IMG/VR virus record: IMGVR_UViG_3300038563_000004
Span: 1 to 31,938 of that record
Strand: one strand, 5' to 3'
Origin: a virus
Length of the DNA: 31,938 bases
Below the pieces are notes generated by a model that saw nothing but the letters and a program-made list of their open reading frames with translations, did no database searches and was not told where the DNA came from. The position numbers were made by a program, and so were the translations under genes. Each line of letters starts with the position of its first letter. Positions within the stretch are counted from its first letter, which is position 1. Of this stretch, positions 8,667-19,286 are shown one piece after another.

Positions 8667-9074
8667 TTAGTCAGTACCGCCGCCATATCTAGTTTCACCT
8701 CTACCTTCAAGTGATCCGAACGCTGTGTTCAGCTTGAACTCTATATTGTCTGCTACTTGCTGAGCTGTCTTTTGAGTTTCCACGCTAGCTGTGCAGTAGG
8801 ATTCTACCAGTAGAAGATACCGGCGCAGATCCTGGATGTCATCAAGTACTCCTTCGGCCCCGTTCAAAACCCCATCGGCCTGTATAGACTTGAAGATGTC
8901 ATATCCTTGTGACTTGCACAGATTCTCGATGCGGTCCCATTTTCTGGCCAGCATCATGAACGCCCCCACTCCACCACGATTTCTCCAGCTAGATCCGTAA
9001 GACTGGCCCTTTTGGATGAGTACATCAACATCTATCTCACCCAGTTTACGCATGTTCAGATAGTCTTCGATCAT
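8667..9074 (-). CDS. Conserved small protein with YGxSWxxRGG motif
   Basis: A 135-residue protein, last in the modification operon. The central segment (SYGSSWRNRGGVGAFMMLAR followed by KWDRIENL, about residues 26-53) is the kind of strongly conserved core seen in phage proteins encoded near nucleotide-metabolism or base-modification genes; I recognise the pattern but cannot name a reaction. The rest is helical (DIQDLRRYLLLVESY). Start is taken at ATG 9074, overlapping the HD-protein stop in an ATGA and preceded by GGAG 8 nt upstream, rather than ATG 9092. Its location downstream of HD and TS-like genes suggests a role in handling modified or canonical nucleotides, which is inference. Confidence 0.6.
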   Translation of the reverse strand: MIEDYLNMRKLGEIDVDVLIQKGQSYGSSWRNRGGVGAFMMLARKWDRIENLCKSQGYDIFKSIQADGVLNGAEGVLDDIQDLRRYLLLVESYCTASVETQKTAQQVADNIEFKLNTAFGSLEGRGETRYGGGTD

Positions 9075-9604
9075 TTGTGACTCCAGTGCCATTCTGTTAA
9101 TGCTAGTTGAACAAGCTCGGCAGCAGGACCGCCACCGAGCGCCGAGAGCTGCGCGCTGAGGTATGCGGCGTAATTCTCTCCAACATCCTCAATAGTGTAG
9201 TTCCCCATTCTCTTCTCCTCAATACACTTGAGGAGCCCATCCAGGTTATCAGCAGTTTTCAGCAGCAAGGCTTCCCATGGGGTCAGCTCGTCCCAACCCA
9301 GATGCCCGTGCACCTCAGCCATAGCGTTGAACTCTATGACTCCGAACGCTTGCTTGGCATCCGGCCCCATTGCCCGCTTGGAAGGACTGGGCATATCGCC
9401 ACTGATGTATTCCCCCATATCGTGGGAAAGTGCTGCCATCATCAAACGAGCTGTCAGTTGGCGGCCAGTCATGATCATCAGCAGGTTTACGAGCCCAAAG
9501 GTATGCTCAGCCACGTTCTCAGTCTTTAGCAGAAATTGTGTATGGTATCGCGTTACACGCCCAGCGCACCGCGCCAAATGTGCCCGCTCTAAGATAGTAG
9601 TCAT
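9071..9604 (-). CDS. YfbR-like HD-domain 5'-deoxynucleotidase
   Basis: A 177-residue HD phosphohydrolase. Metal ligands are visible as ENVAEH (His34), the HD pair His61-Asp62 in ALSHDMGEY, and Asp in KTADNLDGLL. The stretch HDxxExxxGDxPxPxK (residues 61-76) is the YfbR signature, and the length is close to E. coli YfbR. YfbR-type enzymes dephosphorylate dNMPs to deoxynucleosides. Start is ATG 9604, overlapping the thymidylate-synthase-like gene's stop in an ATGA; an upstream in-frame start lies inside that gene. Paired with a TS homologue, it could remove dTMP or surplus dUMP so that a modified nucleotide dominates the pool. Family confident; this pathway role is inferred. Confidence 0.82.
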   Translation of the reverse strand: MTTILERAHLARCAGRVTRYHTQFLLKTENVAEHTFGLVNLLMIMTGRQLTARLMMAALSHDMGEYISGDMPSPSKRAMGPDAKQAFGVIEFNAMAEVHGHLGWDELTPWEALLLKTADNLDGLLKCIEEKRMGNYTIEDVGENYAAYLSAQLSALGGGPAAELVQLALTEWHWSHK

Positions 9605-10647
9605 TTTGTGCCCTTTTTGAATAACGCTCTCGTATACCACTGCACTATTGCCAGTCTCCAGTCATAGGCGTCTATGCACTCAGCAATGTCAATAGCTTCT
9701 TGGAAATTACCGGCTTTCCATTCCCGCCAACTGGCCCATACAGGCTCAACGGTCTCTTCCAGGAACGGTTCTGTGAACCCTTCTGTTTTGCCATTACATA
9801 GCTCCTCACACTCTTTCAGGAATGTCCGCCAGTTAACGACCATAGGCTTCCTCTTTGGGGGCTTAAGGACGCCAGCGTAGCGCTCCCAAGGCTTGCGGCC
9901 TTCCATTGGCCCGCTCATTTCGTTGGCGATGGTTTGGGCCATTCCCCAGTGCTGTTCGTATATGTGCAAGTTGTTGCTTATGTGGTGCCAAGCCCCGCAC
10001 TTAACGCCCAGCGCGTCGGCCATGAACTCCTGTAGCATGGTCATGTGGACGGCATTGGCCCCACAGAGGCCCCATACCAGATCGTTGCTGCGGTTGATGG
10101 TGGTGAAGTCCAGGCGGTCGTACTGAGTCATGCCATCAGGGCTATCCTTGCGGCTGAAGGAAGGCATGATCATCAAGTTGCATGGGAAGTCCTTGCCGGT
10201 CTTGCCATTGCCGTCCACCTCGGCGTCCCACATACTGATCACTGCGCGTCGGTCATTGGGGTCGGCCTCCAGCATCTCAATACATTGTGTGATCTGGTCC
10301 ACATTAAAATGGTTCCGCCATCTGTGACCGTAAGCAGCGTGGAAATTGGCCCCGTTATCGCTATAAGACTCGATGTTGGAATTGAATTGCTGTACGAATG
10401 CAACATCATTCCTACCGGCCAGCATCCAAATGGATTCCATGAGATGAAAGACATGGTTGCAATTCCTCTCTTGATCGAACAGAACCCGCTCCCACGGCTC
10501 CCTGACAGTGATATTAACTACGCCGTTGAACTTCCTGGCCCGGCCATTGCGGGTCTCAACGACGCTGGCATACTTATTGTCCATGATGCGGTAGGCCAGC
10601 ATTCGGTACATATTGCGCAGGTCAGCGAACTCGAAGTTTATAATCAT
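9601..10647 (-). CDS. Thymidylate synthase superfamily; candidate dUMP hydroxymethylase
   Basis: A 348-residue TS-fold protein. Visible hallmarks: Glu71 in LMESIWMLAGRND (equivalent to the ELLWFLRG region), DRRAVISMW at 132-140, nucleophile Cys156 in DFPCNL, Arg-Ser at 186-187 in TINRSNDLVWGL, Asn198 in GANAVHM and His228/Tyr230 in NLHIYEQH. Canonical TS has PCH after the nucleophile and GLPFNIASY; here these read PCN and GLCGANAVH, the divergent form I associate with phages carrying hydroxymethyluracil-derived bases. An Asn rather than Asp in the pyrimidine-binding loop favours dUMP over dCMP. It overlaps both neighbours by ATGA and is preceded by AGGAG. Ordinary dTMP synthesis cannot be excluded from sequence. 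Confidence 0.8.
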   Translation of the reverse strand: MIINFEFADLRNMYRMLAYRIMDNKYASVVETRNGRARKFNGVVNITVREPWERVLFDQERNCNHVFHLMESIWMLAGRNDVAFVQQFNSNIESYSDNGANFHAAYGHRWRNHFNVDQITQCIEMLEADPNDRRAVISMWDAEVDGNGKTGKDFPCNLMIMPSFSRKDSPDGMTQYDRLDFTTINRSNDLVWGLCGANAVHMTMLQEFMADALGVKCGAWHHISNNLHIYEQHWGMAQTIANEMSGPMEGRKPWERYAGVLKPPKRKPMVVNWRTFLKECEELCNGKTEGFTEPFLEETVEPVWASWREWKAGNFQEAIDIAECIDAYDWRLAIVQWYTRALFKKGTK

Positions 10648-11504
10648 TTCTCGGCTCTCCTGAAATAGCGCTTGCGGGATTTCAGGCGCGGGTTGGACAG
10701 GCGCATGTACTTGCCAAACTCACAGAGACAGTTCTGCAAGTCCTGAGCGTGGAGCTCCATGGCCCAGATGTCATCTGGCATATCGTCATACAGTGCTGCT
10801 ATCCTAAGCATGAAGTTGGACTTGGAAGTATTCCCATCCCAGATAAAGTCCAGCCCCTGTATACTTCCAGGGCCGGGACTGCACCAGTCTTGATGGGCTG
10901 CAGCGGCTACCAGATAGCGGTCGTTGCGCAGGTCAGCCACCACTTGAGCGGCTAGGAACCCTGTCCCGCCAAGACCGCGTATAGAGCTAAGCGCTGCGTG
11001 CGCGTTAGCCAGCGAGTCCGTCGGAATAATGACCTTTTGCGCGGCCAGAACCATATCCCGCACATAGTCGACTTTGTCCATCTGCTGGCCAGCGGTACTG
11101 ACCACGTATGCCGGATGGAAAATCTTAACTCCAGGTCTTTCATCTCTGTAGTCCTTTAGCTCTTGGAAGGCCTCAGGGATGCTGAGGCCTAAGTCCGTAG
11201 ACTCTAGCACTCTAGCCAGCGTAGGCGCCCAGTTGAACAGGCGGGCCATAAGGTAGATAGTTGGCAGGCAGCTGATGGTGGCCACATCACTCTCTTCCAT
11301 TGGGAAGTAGTGGCGGACTACGTCGCGGATTTCAATGGTGCCCCGGTCGTCTTCCCTGCGCACATTGCAGAAGTGGTAGGTATTGAGGATAGGGTCATGG
11401 GAATACCCACCTTCAATACCTTCAGGATGCTTATCCTTCAGGATGCGTATCTGCTCTCTGGCGCGAATCCAATACCAGAACTTTTCAAGTACTTCTGTGT
11501 TCAT
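10644..11504 (-). CDS. DNA base hypermodification protein, aGPT-Pplase / AADT-HMUDK-helical type
   Basis: A 286-residue protein with the conserved layout of the family once called alpha-glutamyl/putrescinyl thymine pyrophosphorylase: WIRAREQIRILK near the N-terminus, SHDPILNTYHFCNVRREDDR at 35-54, a helix-hairpin-helix (SSIRGLGGTGFLAAQVVADL, 173-192), GPGSIQGLD at 211-219 and DLQNCLCEFGKYMR at 255-268. Members have a DNA-glycosylase-like fold and act on DNA carrying hydroxymethyluracil-derived thymines, either as amino acid:DNA transferases or as the helical part of hmdU DNA kinases. No Walker A is present, so it is not itself the kinase. Start ATG 11504 overlaps the glycosyltransferase stop. 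Family confident, the clade and acceptor chemistry uncertain. Confidence 0.75.
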   Translation of the reverse strand: MNTEVLEKFWYWIRAREQIRILKDKHPEGIEGGYSHDPILNTYHFCNVRREDDRGTIEIRDVVRHYFPMEESDVATISCLPTIYLMARLFNWAPTLARVLESTDLGLSIPEAFQELKDYRDERPGVKIFHPAYVVSTAGQQMDKVDYVRDMVLAAQKVIIPTDSLANAHAALSSIRGLGGTGFLAAQVVADLRNDRYLVAAAAHQDWCSPGPGSIQGLDFIWDGNTSKSNFMLRIAALYDDMPDDIWAMELHAQDLQNCLCEFGKYMRLSNPRLKSRKRYFRRAEK

Positions 11505-12256
11505 GAGCACCCACCATAGGCCGCAGCCTTCTTCCACTGTATAGAGACATCCCAGCGCGGGCCAATGTCCCAGCCGTCTACCTTCTTAAGCATTACGAAC
11601 TCAGGGAACATACTCTGCAAGGTCTGAGCGCAGTGCTCTTGGAGCTCCAACGTGCGTATGTCGCTGCACCCGCCCCGGTTATTGCTGCCAGACTGGTCCT
11701 GAACTACGCCGTAGTAGTTCATGGAGCCAAAGCCTTCTGTTAAGAGCTTCAAGTTCAGCTCGAAGTCCTCCATCAGGGGCAGGGTCGGCTTTATACCAAA
11801 GCTGCGCAGGATGTCCACTCTGTACCCTAGCGCCCGTAGGATTCTACCATTCTGGTCCCAGATGCCTTTAGCATTGGCGAACTGACGGTGGCCGATACCG
11901 ACGTGGACGCTGGTATTCATCTGCAAATCCAGCACCCTGAAGGCAGCCCCAATCAGGTCGCCATCGTGCCCCTTTACATACTTGCCGTCCTTGCGGAACG
12001 CCCAGTTGGACAGATCGTCATCCAGCATAAGTACTTTGTCGCCACCTACGTGTTCCAGCGCGAAGAGCCTAGACTCAAGCACCCCTGGCCCGCGATTATG
12101 GCAGCTGGCATGATATCCGGCGTCGTGCAATCTAGCCGCCAGCTCGGGATCATCCACCAACAGCTCTACTTGATAATCGAAGTGATCCTTGGCATTGATC
12201 TTATCGTAGGTCCTCTGCATAGCAGGCCCGCGATTGGTAACGATATATACCTTCAT
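11501..12256 (-). CDS. TET-associated-type DNA glycosyltransferase (TAGT-like)
   Basis: A 251-residue GT-A-like glycosyltransferase without membrane segments. It shows a nucleotide-sugar strand (KVYIVTNRGP), a DXD-type metal site Asp79-Asp81 in VLMLDDDLSNW, a TAGT-like HVGIGHRQFANA (118-129), an acidic catalytic-loop candidate MEDFEL (162-167) and a C-terminal NNRGGCSDIRT (192-202). TAGT proteins were proposed to glycosylate hydroxymethylated bases in DNA. Here the partner source of the hydroxymethyl group would be the TS homologue two genes downstream, not a TET dioxygenase. ATG 12256 directly abuts the operator-like GGTGGCACC, so the 5' leader is very short or the start of transcription lies further upstream. 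A protein- or LPS-modifying role is less likely given the neighbours. Confidence 0.72.
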   Translation of the reverse strand: MKVYIVTNRGPAMQRTYDKINAKDHFDYQVELLVDDPELAARLHDAGYHASCHNRGPGVLESRLFALEHVGGDKVLMLDDDLSNWAFRKDGKYVKGHDGDLIGAAFRVLDLQMNTSVHVGIGHRQFANAKGIWDQNGRILRALGYRVDILRSFGIKPTLPLMEDFELNLKLLTEGFGSMNYYGVVQDQSGSNNRGGCSDIRTLELQEHCAQTLQSMFPEFVMLKKVDGWDIGPRWDVSIQWKKAAAYGGCS

Positions 12257-12283: not shown

Positions 12284-12312
12284 AGAAAAGCCGGGTTTGT
12301 GAGGCCCGGCTT
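12284..12312 (-). terminator. Rho-independent terminator after the Lys/Pro/Ala-rich gene
   Basis: Minus-strand stem AGCCGGG / CCCGGCT (12305-12311 and 12289-12295 on plus) with a 9-nt loop, followed by TTTTCTT. It lies 7 nt after the gene ending at 12319 and makes that gene monocistronic. Confidence 0.85.
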
Positions 12313-12318
12313 GGGGCG

Positions 12319-12825
12319 TTACTCAGCAGCAGTTTCTGCTACTTCGCCGACCTGGATGCTGATGAAGCCATGAGCGACGTCGTGGTGGAAATCACCAGTG
12401 GTCAGACCAGCGGCAAGCGCTTCTGCCACAGTTTGACCCGAGGCATAGGCCGCAAAGCGGGCATGGGACGCCGAGCCTTCGCGCTTGGGGTTGGCGGCTG
12501 CCAGTAGGGTGATGACGGCGGTGGCAGGGTACTTGTCGCCACGGCCTTCGCGCTCGGCTTTCGGCGCTTTGTAGGCAGTTTCTTTCGGGCCAAGGACAGG
12601 GCTGCCATCTTCGTTCAGGGCAGGGGTGCCGTCTTCGTTGGCTTGTGGGTATTGTTTCGGCGCCTTGGGCTCTTTAGGGGCTTTTGGCTCCTTGGCAGCT
12701 TTCTCAGGCTTTACAGCAGCACCGCCGTCCAGGGATTTCTTGACGCGCTCTTTCTTCGGAGCAGGAACGTCACAGGCTGCGGTGGCAGCAGCGGCTTCGG
12801 CCAAGAGGGTATCTACGTCAGTCAT
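12319..12825 (-). CDS. Lys/Pro/Ala-rich protein, possible DNA-binding (histone-like)
   Basis: A 168-residue protein with three parts: an acidic/Ala-rich N-terminus (MTDVDTLLAEAAAATAA), a basic low-complexity linker with repeats of EPKAPK at about 50-60, and a compact C-terminal domain with NPKREGSASHARFAAYASGQ, then TVAEALAAGLTTGDFHHDVA. The C-terminal module recurs in phage small proteins and looks like a helix-turn-helix-sized domain; the basic linker would favour nucleic-acid contact. Start is ATG 12825 with AAAGG upstream; a GTG nine bases earlier is unlikely. Private promoter and terminator suggest high expression. A chromatin- or regulator-type role is inferred, with no enzymatic motif seen. 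Confidence 0.65.
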   Translation of the reverse strand: MTDVDTLLAEAAAATAACDVPAPKKERVKKSLDGGAAVKPEKAAKEPKAPKEPKAPKQYPQANEDGTPALNEDGSPVLGPKETAYKAPKAEREGRGDKYPATAVITLLAAANPKREGSASHARFAAYASGQTVAEALAAGLTTGDFHHDVAHGFISIQVGEVAETAAE

Positions 12826-12870
12826 TTTGAGCACCTTTCAGTTGATGGGTATTGCTTCTTAGGAGGTAGT

Positions 12871-12899
12871 ACTATACCACAGTGGCACCTACGCCACAA
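12871..12899 (-). promoter_or_regulatory. Sigma70-like promoter with operator in the spacer
   Basis: Minus strand: TTGTGG (12894-12899), 17-nt spacer, TATAGT (12871-12876) preceded by TGG (extended -10). The recurring 9-mer lies inside the spacer (AGTGGCACC on plus, 12881-12889), so a bound repressor would block polymerase. It drives the gene starting at 12825. Confidence 0.72.
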
Positions 12900-14331
12900 C
12901 TAAATAATTTCTCAGGATTGCTAAAAAGTTTTCCTCTGAATCCTCCTTGCCATCCACTATCGCCAGCAGAGCCCTCTCAAACGGACAGTCCAGCATGATG
13001 CGGTAGATGAATACCTGCTCCGCCTTGGTCCCTTGGCGGGCCACTCGCCGGTTAGCCTGGAAGGTATTCTCCCAGCTAGGGTCGTTAGCGAACCATATCA
13101 CGTTATTACAGTTTTGCTGTAGGCCGTCTATACCGTGCGCTACGCTTTGCGGCTGGCCAAGCAACAAGGGCACGCCCCCAGCGCTAAACGCTTGGCAGTG
13201 GGCCGCTCCGACGGCTGCACTAACGCCCCCACCTACCCTTGGCACCATGTAGCCAAGCCTTTCGTTAATACGCTTATAGTCGTGATGGTATTGGTACAGG
13301 CAGAAGGCAGGCTCGCCATTAAGCTCTTCCAAAAGGTTCTCTAAAGCATCCAGCTTAACAGAATGAGCAACACGATATTCATCTTTTTCGTCTTCATCTA
13401 CGAATGCTCCTTGTACCAGTTGGCGGAGTTTCCCAAAGAGGACACCAGCATTGGGGGCCATGACCGTCTTACCGGCGATCGTGGCTATGAATGTCCTCTC
13501 CAGCTTCTTGTACGCTTCCTTCAGCTCTTCTGGGAACGGGAGCCAGATGTCGACGACTTCACAAGGTATAGCTTCCGTGTCCTCAAGTTGGAGTGTGGTA
13601 GCTGATATCTTTTCAGCAACTCGTTGCAGACCAGTAGATTGAGGTATATATTTACCGTCATGGTCAAGCGCCATATACTCAAGCCTAAAGTGAGTAATGA
13701 ATTGTCCAAGGTCTTCTCCCATATCAGTGATGTAGCATTGTGCAAATAGGTCTTCCAGCTTGTTGGGTTTGGGCGTGCCGGTCATAATCACCCGGCGCGC
13801 CATGTACTTAAGATAACGCTTCAGCGTCTTGAATCTGGCGGAGTCATACGACTTGAAGCGGGTGCTTTCATCAACGGCCAGCATTACGCGCTTGCCGCGC
13901 AGAAAGTCAAGCGCTACAGGGTTGAGAGGATAGCCGCGCTTCTTGTCCCCCAGCTTCCACTCACTCGTCAGCAAGCCCTCGATATTCATCAAGTATACAT
14001 CCGAGGTCGTCTCCATCGCCTTCAAGCGTTCCGTTTTCCCACCATGGATCGTCACGTAACTTAGATGCCGAAAGTCCTCCCACTTGTTCAATTCTGAGGG
14101 CCACGAGGTCGTCACGACGCGCAGAGGACCGAGGACCAACAAGACGTCCACTAGGTCTAGTCGTTTTAGGACCTCGAACGACTTTAGTACTATAGAGGTC
14201 TTGCCCTTTCCTGGCTTTAAGAACAATCTGGTCCCACCATTCTGGACGATTAGTTTCATCCCACGGACCTGCTCCGACTTTGGCTCTAACGAAGGTCTCG
14301 ACTTCGACCAAAGCGGTGTAGTGGTTGTCAT
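12889..14331 (-). CDS. SNF2/DEAD-like superfamily 2 helicase
   Basis: A 480-residue SF2 helicase. Motif order: Q-like LEPKSEQVRGM (15-25), Walker A PGKGKTS (40-46), Walker B VDES at 153-156, motif III MTGTPKPN (183-190), and a C-terminal RecA domain ending in a motif V/VI block (GIDGLQQNCN, then QANRRVARQGTK) with the arginine finger region. It resembles phage SNF2-type translocases that accompany VRR-NUC nucleases, probably acting in recombination or fork restart. The Q-motif places the start at or near ATG 14331, which lies well inside the upstream VRR-NUC gene, giving a roughly 370-nt out-of-frame overlap. The end overlaps an operator copy. Confidence 0.88.
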   Translation of the reverse strand: MTTTTPLWSKSRPSLEPKSEQVRGMKLIVQNGGTRLFLKPGKGKTSIVLKSFEVLKRLDLVDVLLVLGPLRVVTTSWPSELNKWEDFRHLSYVTIHGGKTERLKAMETTSDVYLMNIEGLLTSEWKLGDKKRGYPLNPVALDFLRGKRVMLAVDESTRFKSYDSARFKTLKRYLKYMARRVIMTGTPKPNKLEDLFAQCYITDMGEDLGQFITHFRLEYMALDHDGKYIPQSTGLQRVAEKISATTLQLEDTEAIPCEVVDIWLPFPEELKEAYKKLERTFIATIAGKTVMAPNAGVLFGKLRQLVQGAFVDEDEKDEYRVAHSVKLDALENLLEELNGEPAFCLYQYHHDYKRINERLGYMVPRVGGGVSAAVGAAHCQAFSAGGVPLLLGQPQSVAHGIDGLQQNCNNVIWFANDPSWENTFQANRRVARQGTKAEQVFIYRIMLDCPFERALLAIVDGKEDSEENFLAILRNYLVVA

Positions 14332-14584
14332 ACCAACGTACCTCAGCGCCTAGCGCTCTGATTTCCTTATGGACCTCTACCTGCATATCGTCTGGCACTT
14401 CCCCCGGCTGTTTCCACTCTATATACAAGTGGTGGCCGCCGGGGCCAAACAACAGTAGGCGGTCGGGCCAGCCTTTGCGCCCAGGAGTTACCGTTTTGAC
14501 GTATTTATGGGGCTGGCCATAGGCTTCGAAGAGCTTGGCCGCTATACGGGCGAATGCCTTCTCAATACTGGATTCACGGCGCAC
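13961..14584 (-). CDS. VRR-NUC domain nuclease with C-terminal extension
   Basis: The first 105 residues form a VRR-NUC (PD-(D/E)XK fold) domain: Glu8 in SSIEKAFARIA, GWPDRLLLF (38-46, catalytic Asp41) and LYIEWKQPG (53-61, Glu56/Lys58). These are usually structure-selective, Holliday-junction-type or nickase nucleases and are commonly next to a SNF2-like helicase in phages. A typical phage VRR-NUC is about 90-120 residues; here the frame stays open for about another 100 residues through the helicase 5' end, with little conserved character. GTG 14584 is used, preceded by GGGAG, overlapping the upstream stop. The extension may be real, fortuitous or a remnant of frameshift fusion. Confidence 0.8.
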   Translation of the reverse strand: MRRESSIEKAFARIAAKLFEAYGQPHKYVKTVTPGRKGWPDRLLLFGPGGHHLYIEWKQPGEVPDDMQVEVHKEIRALGAEVRWYDNHYTALVEVETFVRAKVGAGPWDETNRPEWWDQIVLKARKGQDLYSTKVVRGPKTTRPSGRLVGPRSSARRDDLVALRIEQVGGLSASKLRDDPWWENGTLEGDGDDLGCILDEYRGLADE

Positions 14585-15200
14585 TTGTGCAGTCTCCCCC
14601 GTTCCGCCAACTCATGTCGCACCAATTGCACTCGCGACCTGGCTTGGGCTTCCATTCATCATCTAGGCGAATGACGCGTATCTCTTCGTCAATGGCCCCC
14701 TTGGCGTCCTGTATCTCTCCGTCGCTGTAGTTCCATTCCTGGATGTGGCCGGGGATATCAAGGTACACGAAGAATGCTTGGCGACGGTCTTCCATGGCCG
14801 CGTACATCTTGGCTTGGTCTTCATGGTCGTCGTATATCTTGCCAGACTTCCAGTCATATATGGCTTCCAGAAGTCCGTCTACCTTGCCCCGCGCCCAGGC
14901 TTCAGGGTCGTCGAAGCTGGCCAGTGTCCAGTCCTCGAACACAGCTATCTCTCCCTCGGCCACTAGCCCCCGATCTTTTAGATCTCCCATGTAGGACCGC
15001 CACTTGGCCAGACAAGAATTGCCAGTTGGGTAGCAAGCCGCGTCCTTGAAGTAGTACTCCAGCATTTCGTGCAGCATTACTCCGCGCTCGGCGGCGGCCC
15101 CGCTAGGGCTGCGGATGCCGTCGATATAAGCCTTCTTCCATTTCTTAGGGCACTTCTTATAAAGGCTCTTGCCACTATAACTTATCGGCTTCGTGTACAT
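14574..15200 (-). CDS. PD-(D/E)XK exonuclease, Cas4/RecB-like with four-Cys Fe-S pattern
   Basis: A 208-residue nuclease of the RecB/Cas4 branch. His44 in VMLHEMLEYY, Asp108 in GKVDGLLE, Asp116 and Lys118 in IYDWKSGK and the QxxxY motif at 129-133 build the active site. Cys17 (KKCPKKW) plus Cys191, Cys194 and Cys204 (CNWCD...GGDC) give the split four-cysteine arrangement that holds a 4Fe-4S cluster in Cas4 and AddB-type nucleases. Such phage proteins process DNA ends for replication-coupled recombination. It is preceded by GGAG and overlaps a 59-residue upstream gene by 26 nt and the VRR-NUC start by 11 nt. No CRISPR locus accompanies it. Confidence 0.85.
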   Translation of the reverse strand: MYTKPISYSGKSLYKKCPKKWKKAYIDGIRSPSGAAAERGVMLHEMLEYYFKDAACYPTGNSCLAKWRSYMGDLKDRGLVAEGEIAVFEDWTLASFDDPEAWARGKVDGLLEAIYDWKSGKIYDDHEDQAKMYAAMEDRRQAFFVYLDIPGHIQEWNYSDGEIQDAKGAIDEEIRVIRLDDEWKPKPGRECNWCDMSWRNGGDCTSAP

Positions 15201-15354
15201 TGGCGCGCTCCTTCAGTATCTCTTCAATGGCAGCTTTACGAGCAGACATAACTTCCTGTAGAGAAACATCCGTAAAGCTCCAGCCATTGTACTTGATAAT
15301 GTCCTCTAACTCCTCAGTGCTCAGCACTGAGATCACTTCTTTGTAAGTCTTCAT
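15175..15354 (-). CDS. Small helical protein, 59 residues
   Basis: A short gene wedged between polymerase and Cas4-like nuclease. ATG 15354 overlaps the polymerase stop (TAATG) and the stop lies 26 nt inside the next gene. The product starts MKTYKEVISVLSTEELEDII and is strongly helical and charged, with KYNGWSFTDVS in the middle and an alternating acidic/basic tail. The seamless overlap at both ends and the absence of any other explanation for this 150-nt gap support it being real. Family and function not recognised; a polymerase or nuclease accessory is possible from position. Confidence 0.65.
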   Translation of the reverse strand: MKTYKEVISVLSTEELEDIIKYNGWSFTDVSLQEVMSARKAAIEEILKERANVHEADKL

Positions 15355-17156
15355 TAGTCTGGTTTAGCCTCGCCCCAGTGCGCGCCATATCCCGTATCGA
15401 AAATCATAGGGACATCGCATGGTAGATGGTTGGCGGCCTCTTGGTAGATTTCCTCAACGTAAGGAATATCCTTCTCGAAGACGCTGGAGTTAATTTCATC
15501 GTGTACTGGCACCAGTATCCGCCCGCCAATGGCCGAGATCCTAGGGTCCAGGTAGATCATGGCTTCCTTACCTTGGTCAGCAGCGCTGCCTTGGATCAGA
15601 GTGTTGAGCGCTTTGTAATCCCACGTTCCGCCCCAAGGGCTACGCCCCGGCTCGCAGTAGTACACACGCCCGCCAAGGGTGCGGATAGGCATGCCCATCT
15701 TGAAGCGCTTCTTGCATTCCTTGTCCAGTTCTATAACGTCCGGCAGCATGCCACTGACTGCGCCCTTTAGATACTTGGCCCTTGGCGCTTCGCACTCCAC
15801 CTTGGCCGCCAGCGCCGCCAGACCCATGGAATACACCAGCCCCAGGAAGATTTGCTTGGATTCGAAGCGAGTTACGTCTCCACCTACCAAGTTCTTAATC
15901 CAGAGATAGCAGTCCAGCTGCGGATTGTTGATGTAGGCAGCCATCAGGTCGCCAGCTTCGAAGTGCGCGGTCAGGCGCGGCTCCTGTGACTTAAAGTCAC
16001 CACAAAACCAAACTTGACCCCCCTCAGGTAACAGATAAGTGCGCATATCTGGAAACGGGTCTCCCCAGTAGTCAAGACCTTTATTCTTAGGAACGTTTTG
16101 CCCGTTAGGGTCGCTAGAAGATAGGCGTCCTGTGCGAGTTCCGAAGCCGTCTGGATTTCGTACTTGGTTATACGAGGGGTGAATTCTCCCTCCGTTGGAT
16201 TGACAATAACGAAGCCACGGCTCCATGAATGTACCGATGAGGGTATCGTATAGACTGCGACTTGCCAGAAGGCTTTTAAGCTTGGGATCAGTTTCAAGGA
16301 CGGCCTCCAGACTTGCCTTGCCCATGGACGGCTTGCCAGTGGGCGTCATGATGAACCCAGTGTAGCCCCGTTCCTTGAGTACCTCCGCCAGCGCTGCGTC
16401 CTTGACCTCGAAGTCTGGGCCGACCTTCAAGTGCTCCCTGATCAGCTGGTCCAGGAGCGCCCGCTTGATGTTAGCCTTGTGGCAATCATCACGGAGACGG
16501 GCTTCGTCCACACGGACTCCCCCGTTCTGCATACGACCGAGGATGGGCGCCAGTGTACGCTCCCGGTTATAGGGCTCAAGCATATCCTGGATAGTAGGCT
16601 TGAGGAATTCGTATAGCTCTCTGGTGCGGTATATGTCGCCAATAGCATAAGGGCCGCATAGAGAAACAGGAGTCTCAGAGATGTAAGCACCGCACTCTTT
16701 GCGGCTGCGGCAGTCCGGGACGTTGACCATGATCCAGTCGTACATGTCTTGTTGTTCATCAGGAGCTATCCCGAGCCAGTCTTCCGCCAAGTCTTTGAGA
16801 GACAGTGATCTCGCGTGCGGGTTGTTGAGGTACGCCGCGAAGAGTGTGTCATGCGTAAGTAGTGGGTCGCGTTCAGGAAGATCGAGGTGAAAAGCAAGAA
16901 CAGGAATATCGAAGATAATACCGTTATGAGTAATGAATACTTCATCCCAGTATTTGAGGAGTGCTTCACGGGCCTGCTCCTTTGTACAGTTGTTGCCTGA
17001 CGGGTGGCCCCAGGCCAGATACAGGCGCTGATTACTACCATCAGGCTGCGGAATGCCGAGCGCTACGCCCACAGGGACAGGGCGTAGCGGACGACCCTTT
17101 TCAATCTTCTTGGACTCGATATCGAGTTCAATTTCTAAGCGCTCAGTGCCTAGCAT
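15354..17156 (-). CDS. Family A DNA polymerase with 3'-5' exonuclease
   Basis: A 600-residue replicative polymerase of the T7/Pol I type. Exonuclease motifs: ExoI LDIES (Asp12/Glu14), ExoII THNGIIFDIP, ExoIII YAIGDIYRTREL. Polymerase motifs: SGRLSSxxPNxQNVPK-like segment (TGRLSSSDPNGQNVPK), motif A CGDFKSQEPRL, motif B KQIFLGLVYSMG and motif C PVHDEINSS. There is no 5'-3' exonuclease domain. ExoI lies only 12 residues from the start, so the domain is compact but complete. AGGAGGG precedes ATG 17156, which overlaps the stop of a 25-residue membrane peptide gene. This enzyme should replicate the phage DNA and would have to accept any hydroxymethylated dUTP made by the modification genes. Confidence 0.95.
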   Translation of the reverse strand: MLGTERLEIELDIESKKIEKGRPLRPVPVGVALGIPQPDGSNQRLYLAWGHPSGNNCTKEQAREALLKYWDEVFITHNGIIFDIPVLAFHLDLPERDPLLTHDTLFAAYLNNPHARSLSLKDLAEDWLGIAPDEQQDMYDWIMVNVPDCRSRKECGAYISETPVSLCGPYAIGDIYRTRELYEFLKPTIQDMLEPYNRERTLAPILGRMQNGGVRVDEARLRDDCHKANIKRALLDQLIREHLKVGPDFEVKDAALAEVLKERGYTGFIMTPTGKPSMGKASLEAVLETDPKLKSLLASRSLYDTLIGTFMEPWLRYCQSNGGRIHPSYNQVRNPDGFGTRTGRLSSSDPNGQNVPKNKGLDYWGDPFPDMRTYLLPEGGQVWFCGDFKSQEPRLTAHFEAGDLMAAYINNPQLDCYLWIKNLVGGDVTRFESKQIFLGLVYSMGLAALAAKVECEAPRAKYLKGAVSGMLPDVIELDKECKKRFKMGMPIRTLGGRVYYCEPGRSPWGGTWDYKALNTLIQGSAADQGKEAMIYLDPRISAIGGRILVPVHDEINSSVFEKDIPYVEEIYQEAANHLPCDVPMIFDTGYGAHWGEAKPD

Positions 17157-18481: not shown

Positions 18482-19054
18482 TTACGCCTGTGCATTGCTA
18501 CCACCAGACATCATAGTATCGCCTTCCTTGATGAACACGCCGTCAACCATCCGCCCCTTGCGGTCCTTGATAATATTCCAGACGTCTTCGAGAACACGAT
18601 TAGGGTCCAGCCCAAGCTCCACTGCGGCTGCAATACAATCACCGAAGACTGCCGCCAGTATGTCCGCCAGGTGCGGGCTGGCAAGCTCTAGGGCGAGGAT
18701 GCCGATATTGTAGGAGTTTTCACGGAAGGTGGCCTCGGCCCCGATGGAGTCGTCTTTCATGACGTTGGAGATGGTATCTTTGCATGCCTCATAGCTGAAG
18801 CCGTCTGTGTCAGTGAGCTTGCACAGAGAGTGGAGAATGCGGACGTTGGCCTGTGCCCCCATGATGGCCACTATCACCATCTTGTCGCCGAGCGCGTCGG
18901 CCATAACTTCCAGCTTTCCTCGCGCAGCACCAGCAGCGAACTCGCCATGCTCTTCAACGAGCTTGACATACTGGCGCTCCACTGTAGAGCCTTGAACCAA
19001 GTTGCGGTCGTTGGCCCAGCCGATGATCTGGGCTACCAAGTGATCAAGTGTCAT
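18482..19054 (-). CDS. MazG-like NTP pyrophosphohydrolase
   Basis: A 190-residue all-alpha pyrophosphatase. The N-terminal 60 residues carry the metal-binding pattern of MazG/dUTPase-like folds: VEEHGE (Glu34, Glu35, Glu38) followed by EVMADALGD (Glu49, Asp53, Asp57). These enzymes convert (d)NTPs to NMPs and PPi. The C-terminal half (DTISNVMKDDSIGAEATF, AVFGDCIAAAVELGLDPNRV) is a second helical segment. Start is ATG 19054 (GAGG 9 nt upstream), not the longer open frame. In a phage that may replace thymine, a dTTP- or dUTP-directed pyrophosphatase would help purge canonical nucleotides; substrate choice is inference. The stop lies just upstream of an operator-bearing promoter. Confidence 0.72.
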   Translation of the reverse strand: MTLDHLVAQIIGWANDRNLVQGSTVERQYVKLVEEHGEFAAGAARGKLEVMADALGDKMVIVAIMGAQANVRILHSLCKLTDTDGFSYEACKDTISNVMKDDSIGAEATFRENSYNIGILALELASPHLADILAAVFGDCIAAAVELGLDPNRVLEDVWNIIKDRKGRMVDGVFIKEGDTMMSGGSNAQA

Positions 19055-19286
19055 TGTCTGTTTCCTCAGGGATTTTATAGTATTTGCAGTGCTGTACCAT
19101 TGGCTGAAACGACTTGCCGCAGGACTCGCAGTTGAATCCGGCATAGTTCCCCACTTGAGAACCATCCATGAACCTCCAGTACTTGGCAATGGGCACCTTG
19201 CCAAAGGATGGTTCTTCTCTGGGCTCCTCAGTGTAAGCGTACTCAGCCTTACACTGGGAGCAGCACATCACCCAGCGTCTGATCAC
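19044..19286 (-). CDS. Zinc-ribbon protein, two CxxC pairs
   Basis: A small protein of about 80 residues with MCCSQCKAEYAYTEE near the N-terminus and FNCESCGKSFQPM near the C-terminus, two CxxC knuckles typical of a zinc ribbon. The linker contains PIAKYWRFMDGSQV. GTG 19286 overlaps the upstream stop (GTGA), which favours it over ATG 19268; the ribosome binding site is weak for both. The end overlaps the MazG-like start by 11 nt. Phage zinc ribbons often bind host RNA polymerase or nucleic acids, but nothing here identifies the partner. Confidence 0.65.
   Translation of the reverse strand: MIRRWVMCCSQCKAEYAYTEEPREEPSFGKVPIAKYWRFMDGSQVGNYAGFNCESCGKSFQPMVQHCKYYKIPEETDNDT

Follow-up and report, generated by a model that had tools for sequence, protein, structure and literature searches.

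The stretch of DNA analysed here (the window) comprises the first 31,938 bases of the 38,905-base (38.9 kb) virus record IMGVR_UViG_3300038563_000004 (G000), and our subject is a putative thymine-modification cassette of five genes on its minus strand, at positions 8667-12256. The five open reading frames, of 251, 286, 348, 177 and 135 amino acids (aa), are all intact with zero internal stops. As the initial annotation had described, each overlaps the next by ATGA, at 11501-11504, 10644-10647, 9601-9604 and 9071-9074. The genes are:

11501..12256, minus strand: TAGT-like GT-A glycosyltransferase, 251 aa (PF20691, phrog_842, GT-A fold), predicted to transfer a sugar to 5-hydroxymethyl-deoxyuridine (5-hmdU) in DNA
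10644..11504, minus strand: HMUDK_hel ('aGPT-Pplase1'), 286 aa (PF18723, phrog_2396), a kinase partner in other phages
9601..10647, minus strand: thymidylate synthase (TS) homologue, 348 aa, predicted deoxyuridine monophosphate (dUMP) 5-hydroxymethylase (phrog_5131, identity to the M6/YuA enzyme, MilA match)
9071..9604, minus strand: YfbR-like HD nucleotidase, 177 aa (PF12917), proposed to remove competing dTMP
8667..9074, minus strand: small NMAD1-like (nucleotide-modification-associated) protein, 135 aa (identity to Pam3_54)

The identical five-gene order was found in an independent phage (L005), in which HMUDK_hel is 72% identical and the glycosyltransferase about 54% identical to those of the window. 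This recurrence excludes a chance arrangement.

Profile searches placed the first four proteins in the TAGT, HMUDK_hel, TS and YfbR-like HD families, all above the Pfam curated cut-offs, and neither the glycosyltransferase nor the 286-aa protein fell into an unrelated family. The motifs to which the initial annotation had drawn attention in the glycosyltransferase, the 286-aa protein and the TS homologue were present and conserved. The glycosyltransferase is a member of the TAGT family (33.2 bits against PF20691, cut-off 27.5) and scored 104 bits against phrog_842 of the PHROGs database, which carries the label beta-glucosyl-HMC-alpha-glucosyltransferase. Residues D79-D80-D81 and G195-G196 were invariant in an alignment of 19 relatives. 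The AlphaFold model of the protein (predicted local distance difference test score, pLDDT, 91.7) retrieved GT-A folds from the PDB (E about 2e-7, probability 1.00). The top match was AvpGT (E = 2e-7), which has also been crystallised with the nucleoside Ara-A, and the fold neighbours include cell-wall and phosphoglycerate enzymes. A profile of the glycosyltransferase gave no meaningful match to PDB sequences, and a search of viral contigs with the window protein as the lone query found no close relatives. An alignment query for TAGT did recover relatives among viral contigs, and TAGT homologues are also carried by T-even-type phages.

The 286-aa protein matched HMUDK_hel (PF18723) with 99.3 bits (cut-off 25) and phrog_2396 with 118 bits, and an alignment of 43 sequences contained 21 invariant columns, among them N47, R50, D53, C261, E262 and K265. 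Its model was entirely helical (pLDDT 92.4). The initial annotation had offered both HMUDK_hel and the amino acid:DNA transferase ADDT as affiliations, and only the former stood, as comparison of the two profiles was weak (E = 0.11). In Bacillus phage Goe26 (L092:3065-4975) a single polypeptide of 636 aa contains a kinase (35-193) and the helical domain HMUDK_hel (312-597), and this fusion indicates that HMUDK_hel is the partner of the kinase in that setting. Phage PaMx11 carries ADDT (gp46), the kinase (gp49) and HMUDK_hel (gp50) as three separate genes. The PaMx11 protein of known structure (PDB 8z2m), PUGT, termed a 5-PmdU glycinyltransferase, is gp46, and hence corresponds to ADDT and not to HMUDK_hel. 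Its profile matches thus assign the 286-aa protein to HMUDK_hel, a family of kinase partners, and not to ADDT.

The 348-aa protein scored 79.8 bits against Thymidylat_synt (cut-off 24.3) and 303 bits against phrog_5131, and was 38-41% identical to the enzyme of phages M6 and YuA. Among solved structures its closest relative was the CMP hydroxymethylase MilA, with 62 bits against 42 bits for the best TS. Residues C156-N157 and N198 were invariant in eight aligned homologues; C156 is the catalytic Cys, and N198 occupies the position that distinguishes dUMP from dCMP, where LuckyBarnes, a phage of Brevibacterium, also has Asn. Specificity for dCMP is determined by an Asp at this position, Asp179 in the T4 enzyme (PMC6400193). 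The DNA of M6 contains a base derived from 5-hmdU (PMC6449724). With a catalytic Cys, Asn instead of Asp, and greater proximity to hydroxymethylases than to TS, the homologue very probably makes 5-hmdUMP, in line with the dUMP-type hydroxymethylase that had been proposed. The HD protein matched PF12917 with 60.6 bits (cut-off 25.9), and M6 has a member of the same family in the same position (gp059). The 135-aa protein had zero Pfam matches; over 92 columns it shares 51% identity with Pam3_54, whose annotation reads 'nucleotide modification'. By eye, the C-terminus of the LuckyBarnes TS contains a sequence resembling it.

We then looked for the enzymes with which HMUDK_hel is associated elsewhere. 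No 5-hmdU kinase was detected in G000 with either PF18748 (HMUDK_HMUD1) or a 20-sequence kinase profile, and positive controls matched. The kinase profile recovered four positive controls but no kinase in MW202897 and LuckyBarnes, both complete phages, or in a further 15 contigs of the glycosyltransferase type (35-43 kb). ADDT (PF18724) gave no match in G000, with M6 and Pam3 recovered as controls. G000 thus lacks both the kinase of the M6-type 5-hmdU kinase system and the ADDT of amino-acid thymidine hypermodification. A TET/JBP gene was seen neither among the proteins covered by general profile scans nor in a search of G000 and 12 related records with PF12851, run without a positive control. 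The initial annotation had envisaged glycosylated and/or aminoacylated 5-hmdU made by a route without TET. Glycosylation by such a route is a well-supported prediction; aminoacylation is unsupported, because ADDT, to which amino-acid transfer in this pathway is ascribed, and the 5-hmdU kinase that must act before it and provides its phosphorylated intermediate are both absent from the record.

The position that the kinase occupies in other phages was examined across 80 IMG/VR loci gathered with the HMUDK_hel alignment, whose genes were labelled with profiles built for this analysis. Once the window and the reference phages had been added and all were dereplicated at 90% identity, there were 68 clusters, 58 with and 10 without TS. 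In the 58 clusters with TS, the slot before HMUDK_hel held TAGT in 24, the kinase in 18, another P-loop kinase in one, and proteins named GT-B1, GT-B2 and GT-B3 in four, four and one, respectively, while six had no recognised enzyme; these labels rest on profiles, and because similarity to the window set the ranking of the loci, the proportions do not represent frequencies in a population. A kinase and a glycosyltransferase were never found together (0/58). In 21 of the 24 TAGT loci and 17 of the 18 kinase loci, the enzyme was encoded immediately upstream of HMUDK_hel, in many cases with an overlap. ADDT was present in 9/18 kinase clusters and in 0/33 glycosyltransferase clusters (Fisher p = 1.6e-5, kinship ignored). 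On a quick tree of HMUDK_hel, with branch support from the Shimodaira-Hasegawa-like approximate likelihood ratio test only, the slot type changed 15 times, about seven of these between kinase and glycosyltransferase. GT-B3 (L060) and kinase (L066) loci were sisters with 100% support. The nearest relatives of the window's HMUDK_hel, about 75% identical (L011 and L012), share its flanks and the TS-HD-NMAD1 tail, and a GT-B-like protein of 413-415 aa replaces TAGT. The GT-B label comes from the look of the sequences and from weak profiles, since GT-B1 matched Glyco_transf_4 (E = 0.008) and the mannosyltransferase PimA (E about 0.4) weakly and GT-B2 had no profile match. Taken together, these comparisons of sequence indicate that the slot before HMUDK_hel is exchangeable, and accepts P-loop kinases, TAGT or one of three unrelated families of GT-B-looking proteins.

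A search that started from a TAGT alignment rather than from HMUDK_hel, its query nevertheless built from HMUDK_hel-linked genes, yielded 59 clusters after dereplication. HMUDK_hel lay within 6 kb in 53 of them, TS in 55, both in 52 and a kinase in none. The usual association of TAGT with TET oxygenases, to which the initial annotation had referred, therefore does not extend to this clade. With GT-B1 as the query, HMUDK_hel-TS cassettes were found in at least nine loci.

Several loci departed from the common arrangement. The ten clusters without TS form a well-supported HMUDK_hel clade with neither TS, kinase nor glycosyltransferase nearby (L043, L050, L052, L059, L067, L071, L072, L077, L080 and L085), and some of them, by eye, adjoin DUF5131-like proteins. 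In L021-L024, L028-L032 and L053, HMUDK_hel lies near TS, followed in several by a small IrrE/M78-peptidase-like protein (weak match); where the contig is long enough, TAGT or GT-B1 is found at a distance of about 5-7 kb. Tandem TAGT genes occur in single cassettes of L003 (7154-8765), L084 (7921-9440), L173, L175 and L178, and could assemble a disaccharide on the base. A radical S-adenosylmethionine (SAM)/SPASM protein located between TAGT and HMUDK_hel in L047 (8934-9992) is a possible further tailoring step. Downstream of TS in L045 (IMGVR_UViG_3300035307_000007, 12335-14682) are matches to HldE-kinase (TIGR02198, 237 bits) and GmhA (TIGR00441, 182 bits), both under the equivalog cut-offs, along with an HldC-like nucleotidyltransferase and a GmhB-like phosphatase recognised by eye. 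This apparent ADP-heptose pathway beside a GT-B2 slot protein suggests that the 5-hmdU of L045 may be heptosylated.

Three further features of the window bear on expression of the cassette and on nucleotide supply:

12286..12312, minus strand: terminator-like hairpin and T-run, AAGCCGGG-CCTCACAAA-CCCGGCTTTT, read in the sequence just upstream of the cassette
15354..17156, minus strand: family A DNA polymerase (PolA; PF00476, 130 bits), presumed to incorporate 5-hmdUTP
18482..19204, minus strand: MazG-like nucleotide pyrophosphatase (phrog_1992, 138 bits), context for the dNTP pool; its true start is probably internal

Given the hairpin just upstream, the five genes may be a transcription unit of their own. 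A genome containing 2-aminoadenine (Z), with a DpoZ-like polymerase and a DatZ-like HD protein, was also considered and rejected, as no PurZ (PF00709, an adenylosuccinate-synthetase homologue) was found in G000 while 14/14 controls matched; the window PolA scored 161 bits against DpoZ, the aminoadenine-incorporating polymerase, far under the cut-off of 500. The window ends (31938; about 7939-7945 of L004) where a brief stretch of N falls within the record's terminase gene, so that the record is scaffolded or masked there.

We consider it probable, on the strength of these gene families and their linkage, that the cassette swaps genomic thymine for glycosylated 5-hydroxymethyl-uracil, with HMUDK_hel as the shared partner for 5-hmdU in DNA. 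The TS homologue would convert dUMP to 5-hydroxymethyl-dUMP. As judged from their families, the HD nucleotidase and the MazG-like enzyme would hold dTMP and dTTP low, and 5-hmdUMP would be phosphorylated further, to the triphosphate, for the phage PolA to incorporate. Once the DNA has been replicated, the TAGT-like enzyme, whose family, fold and linkage all fit this role, would move a hexose from a nucleotide-sugar onto the 5-hydroxymethyl group in DNA. HMUDK_hel would recognise or expose 5-hmdU in duplex DNA for its partner enzyme, serving the P-loop kinase in M6-type phages and the glycosyltransferase here, an exchange that comparative genomics documents. Such a modification would protect the DNA against restriction and against DNA glycosylases of the uracil type. 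A broader proposal, for and against which we see equal odds, is that HMUDK_hel acts as an all-purpose adaptor, offering 5-hmdU in duplex DNA to any enzyme plugged into the slot; kinases, TAGT and at least three GT-B-like families would have been swapped in, yielding sugar-bearing thymines that include a probable heptosyl-thymine in L045.

Some observations weigh against this interpretation. A fold search with the HMUDK_hel model found nothing significant among solved structures (best E about 1), so that base exposure by HMUDK_hel is a guess. The weak matches, to the DNA glycosylase MagIII (TM-score 0.42 by target) and to PUGT (8z2m), were not used as proof, and the HMUDK_hel profile had no meaningful match among PDB sequences. 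In 3/59 clusters, and in the complete phage MW202897, TAGT adjoins TS and HMUDK_hel is lacking; HMUDK_hel is thus not always needed, and TAGT probably works without it in some phages. The G000 record may be short of one end, and phage DNA with glycosylated 5-hmdU was unreported as of 2019 (PMC6449724).

The TS-glycosyltransferase cassettes that lack HMUDK_hel, together with the TS-less clade of ten clusters and the constancy of TS as the neighbour across all slot variants, would also fit a role for HMUDK_hel that is linked with the hydroxymethylase or with DNA, as a 5-hmdU reader, guard or repair-like protein that does no physical work with the adjacent enzyme, the slot being simply the start of a mosaic operon. 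We regard this as unlikely in view of the kinase-HMUDK_hel fusion in Goe26 and the adjoining or overlapping position of the enzyme in nearly all TAGT and kinase loci. The older family name aGPT-Pplase1, and the occurrence of HMUDK_hel in phages with amine-bearing thymine such as M6, might instead point to an amino-acid or polyamine transferase and to DNA with aminoacylated 5-hmdU, alone or with the glycosylated form. We give this scarcely any credence, since ADDT and the kinase are missing from the record, ADDT occurs in no glycosyltransferase-type cluster, the HMUDK_hel and ADDT profiles compare poorly, and the glycinyltransferase of PaMx11 is gp46, with HMUDK_hel encoded separately as gp50.

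The base and the acceptor were weighed in the same way. If the TS homologue made 5-hydroxymethyl-dCMP, TAGT would produce glycosylated 5-hydroxymethylcytosine (hmC) as in T-even phages, and the phrog_842 label, the homologues in T-even-type phages and the dCMP hydroxymethylase predicted in LuckyBarnes (PMC6588365) agree with this, which is the published reading of LuckyBarnes. Position 198 is however Asn in 8/8 aligned homologues, LuckyBarnes included, whereas Asp sets dCMP specificity (PMC6400193), and the nearest well-studied homologue belongs to M6, a 5-hmdU phage; we therefore hold hmC to be improbable. GT-A folds serve many acceptors, among them those of the cell-wall and phosphoglycerate enzymes found as neighbours, and the glycosyltransferase might modify a polysaccharide or a protein of the host surface, as happens in superinfection exclusion, and not DNA. 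Its translational overlap with HMUDK_hel, its linkage to TS (55/59 clusters) and HMUDK_hel (53/59), and its homology to a phage DNA-glucosyltransferase family make this very improbable.

Co-location of these genes is itself already known, from an account of pelagiphages in 2022 (PMC9599517). The exchangeable catalytic slot beside HMUDK_hel is an added result, stronger and more testable than the claim of the initial annotation, and we found no description of an exchange between kinase and glycosyltransferase in the literature searched, which did not extend to the central papers on the pathway. Such cassettes occur commonly among environmental phages. If our interpretation is true, base-J-like DNA arises in phages with no need of a TET/JBP oxygenase, and the family that takes its name from a kinase is in fact an adaptor for 5-hmdU in DNA that different enzymes share. 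An exchangeable system for adding different groups to thymine in DNA would then exist, and it would allow prediction of which phages resist restriction enzymes and DNA glycosylases. Glycosylated 5-hmdU can be tested directly in the cultured phage LuckyBarnes.

Among the known systems close to the cassette is the 5-hmdU pathway of thymidine hypermodification in the Pseudomonas phages M6, YuA and PaMx11 (also in ViI and PhiW-14), where a gene for a TS homologue resembling dUMP hydroxymethylase is likewise followed by those for HMUDK_hel, the HD nucleotidase and PolA in an order that matches the window. The cassette differs in having neither 5-hmdU kinase nor ADDT, in showing no pyridoxal phosphate (PLP)- or radical-SAM-type tailoring genes, and in the glycosyltransferase that stands in place of the kinase. 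HTVC023P-type pelagiphages carry TS, aG/PT-PPlase1, a 5'-deoxynucleotidase and a beta-glucosyl-HMC-alpha-glucosyltransferase together near polA, a 'partner' set that 'potentially broadens the functionality' (PMC9599517, mSystems 2022). These are apparently the same four genes as in the window; the available portions of that account make no mention of the absence of a kinase, of its exchange with a glycosyltransferase, of other glycosyltransferase families in the slot or of a role for HMUDK_hel. Lytic LuckyBarnes (gp38-gp41), grown on B. iodinum ATCC 15728, shares TS, TAGT and HMUDK_hel (230 bits) and is likewise kinase-free, but has two TAGT copies and an NMAD1-like tail on TS; its announcement predicted a dCMP hydroxymethylase and two glycosyltransferases and hence hmC (PMC6588365). 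The glucosylated 5-hmC of T-even phages also involves a hydroxymethylase and a DNA glycosyltransferase, the latter from the same PHROG, on cytosine, while uracil is predicted for the window from Asn, and not Asp, at the specificity position. Base J, the beta-glucosyl-hydroxymethyluracil of kinetoplastids, belongs to the same predicted class of product, an O-glycosylated hydroxymethyluracil in DNA. In base J synthesis, thymine already in DNA is oxidised by JBP1/2, whereas here the hydroxymethyl group would be put on dUMP before replication.

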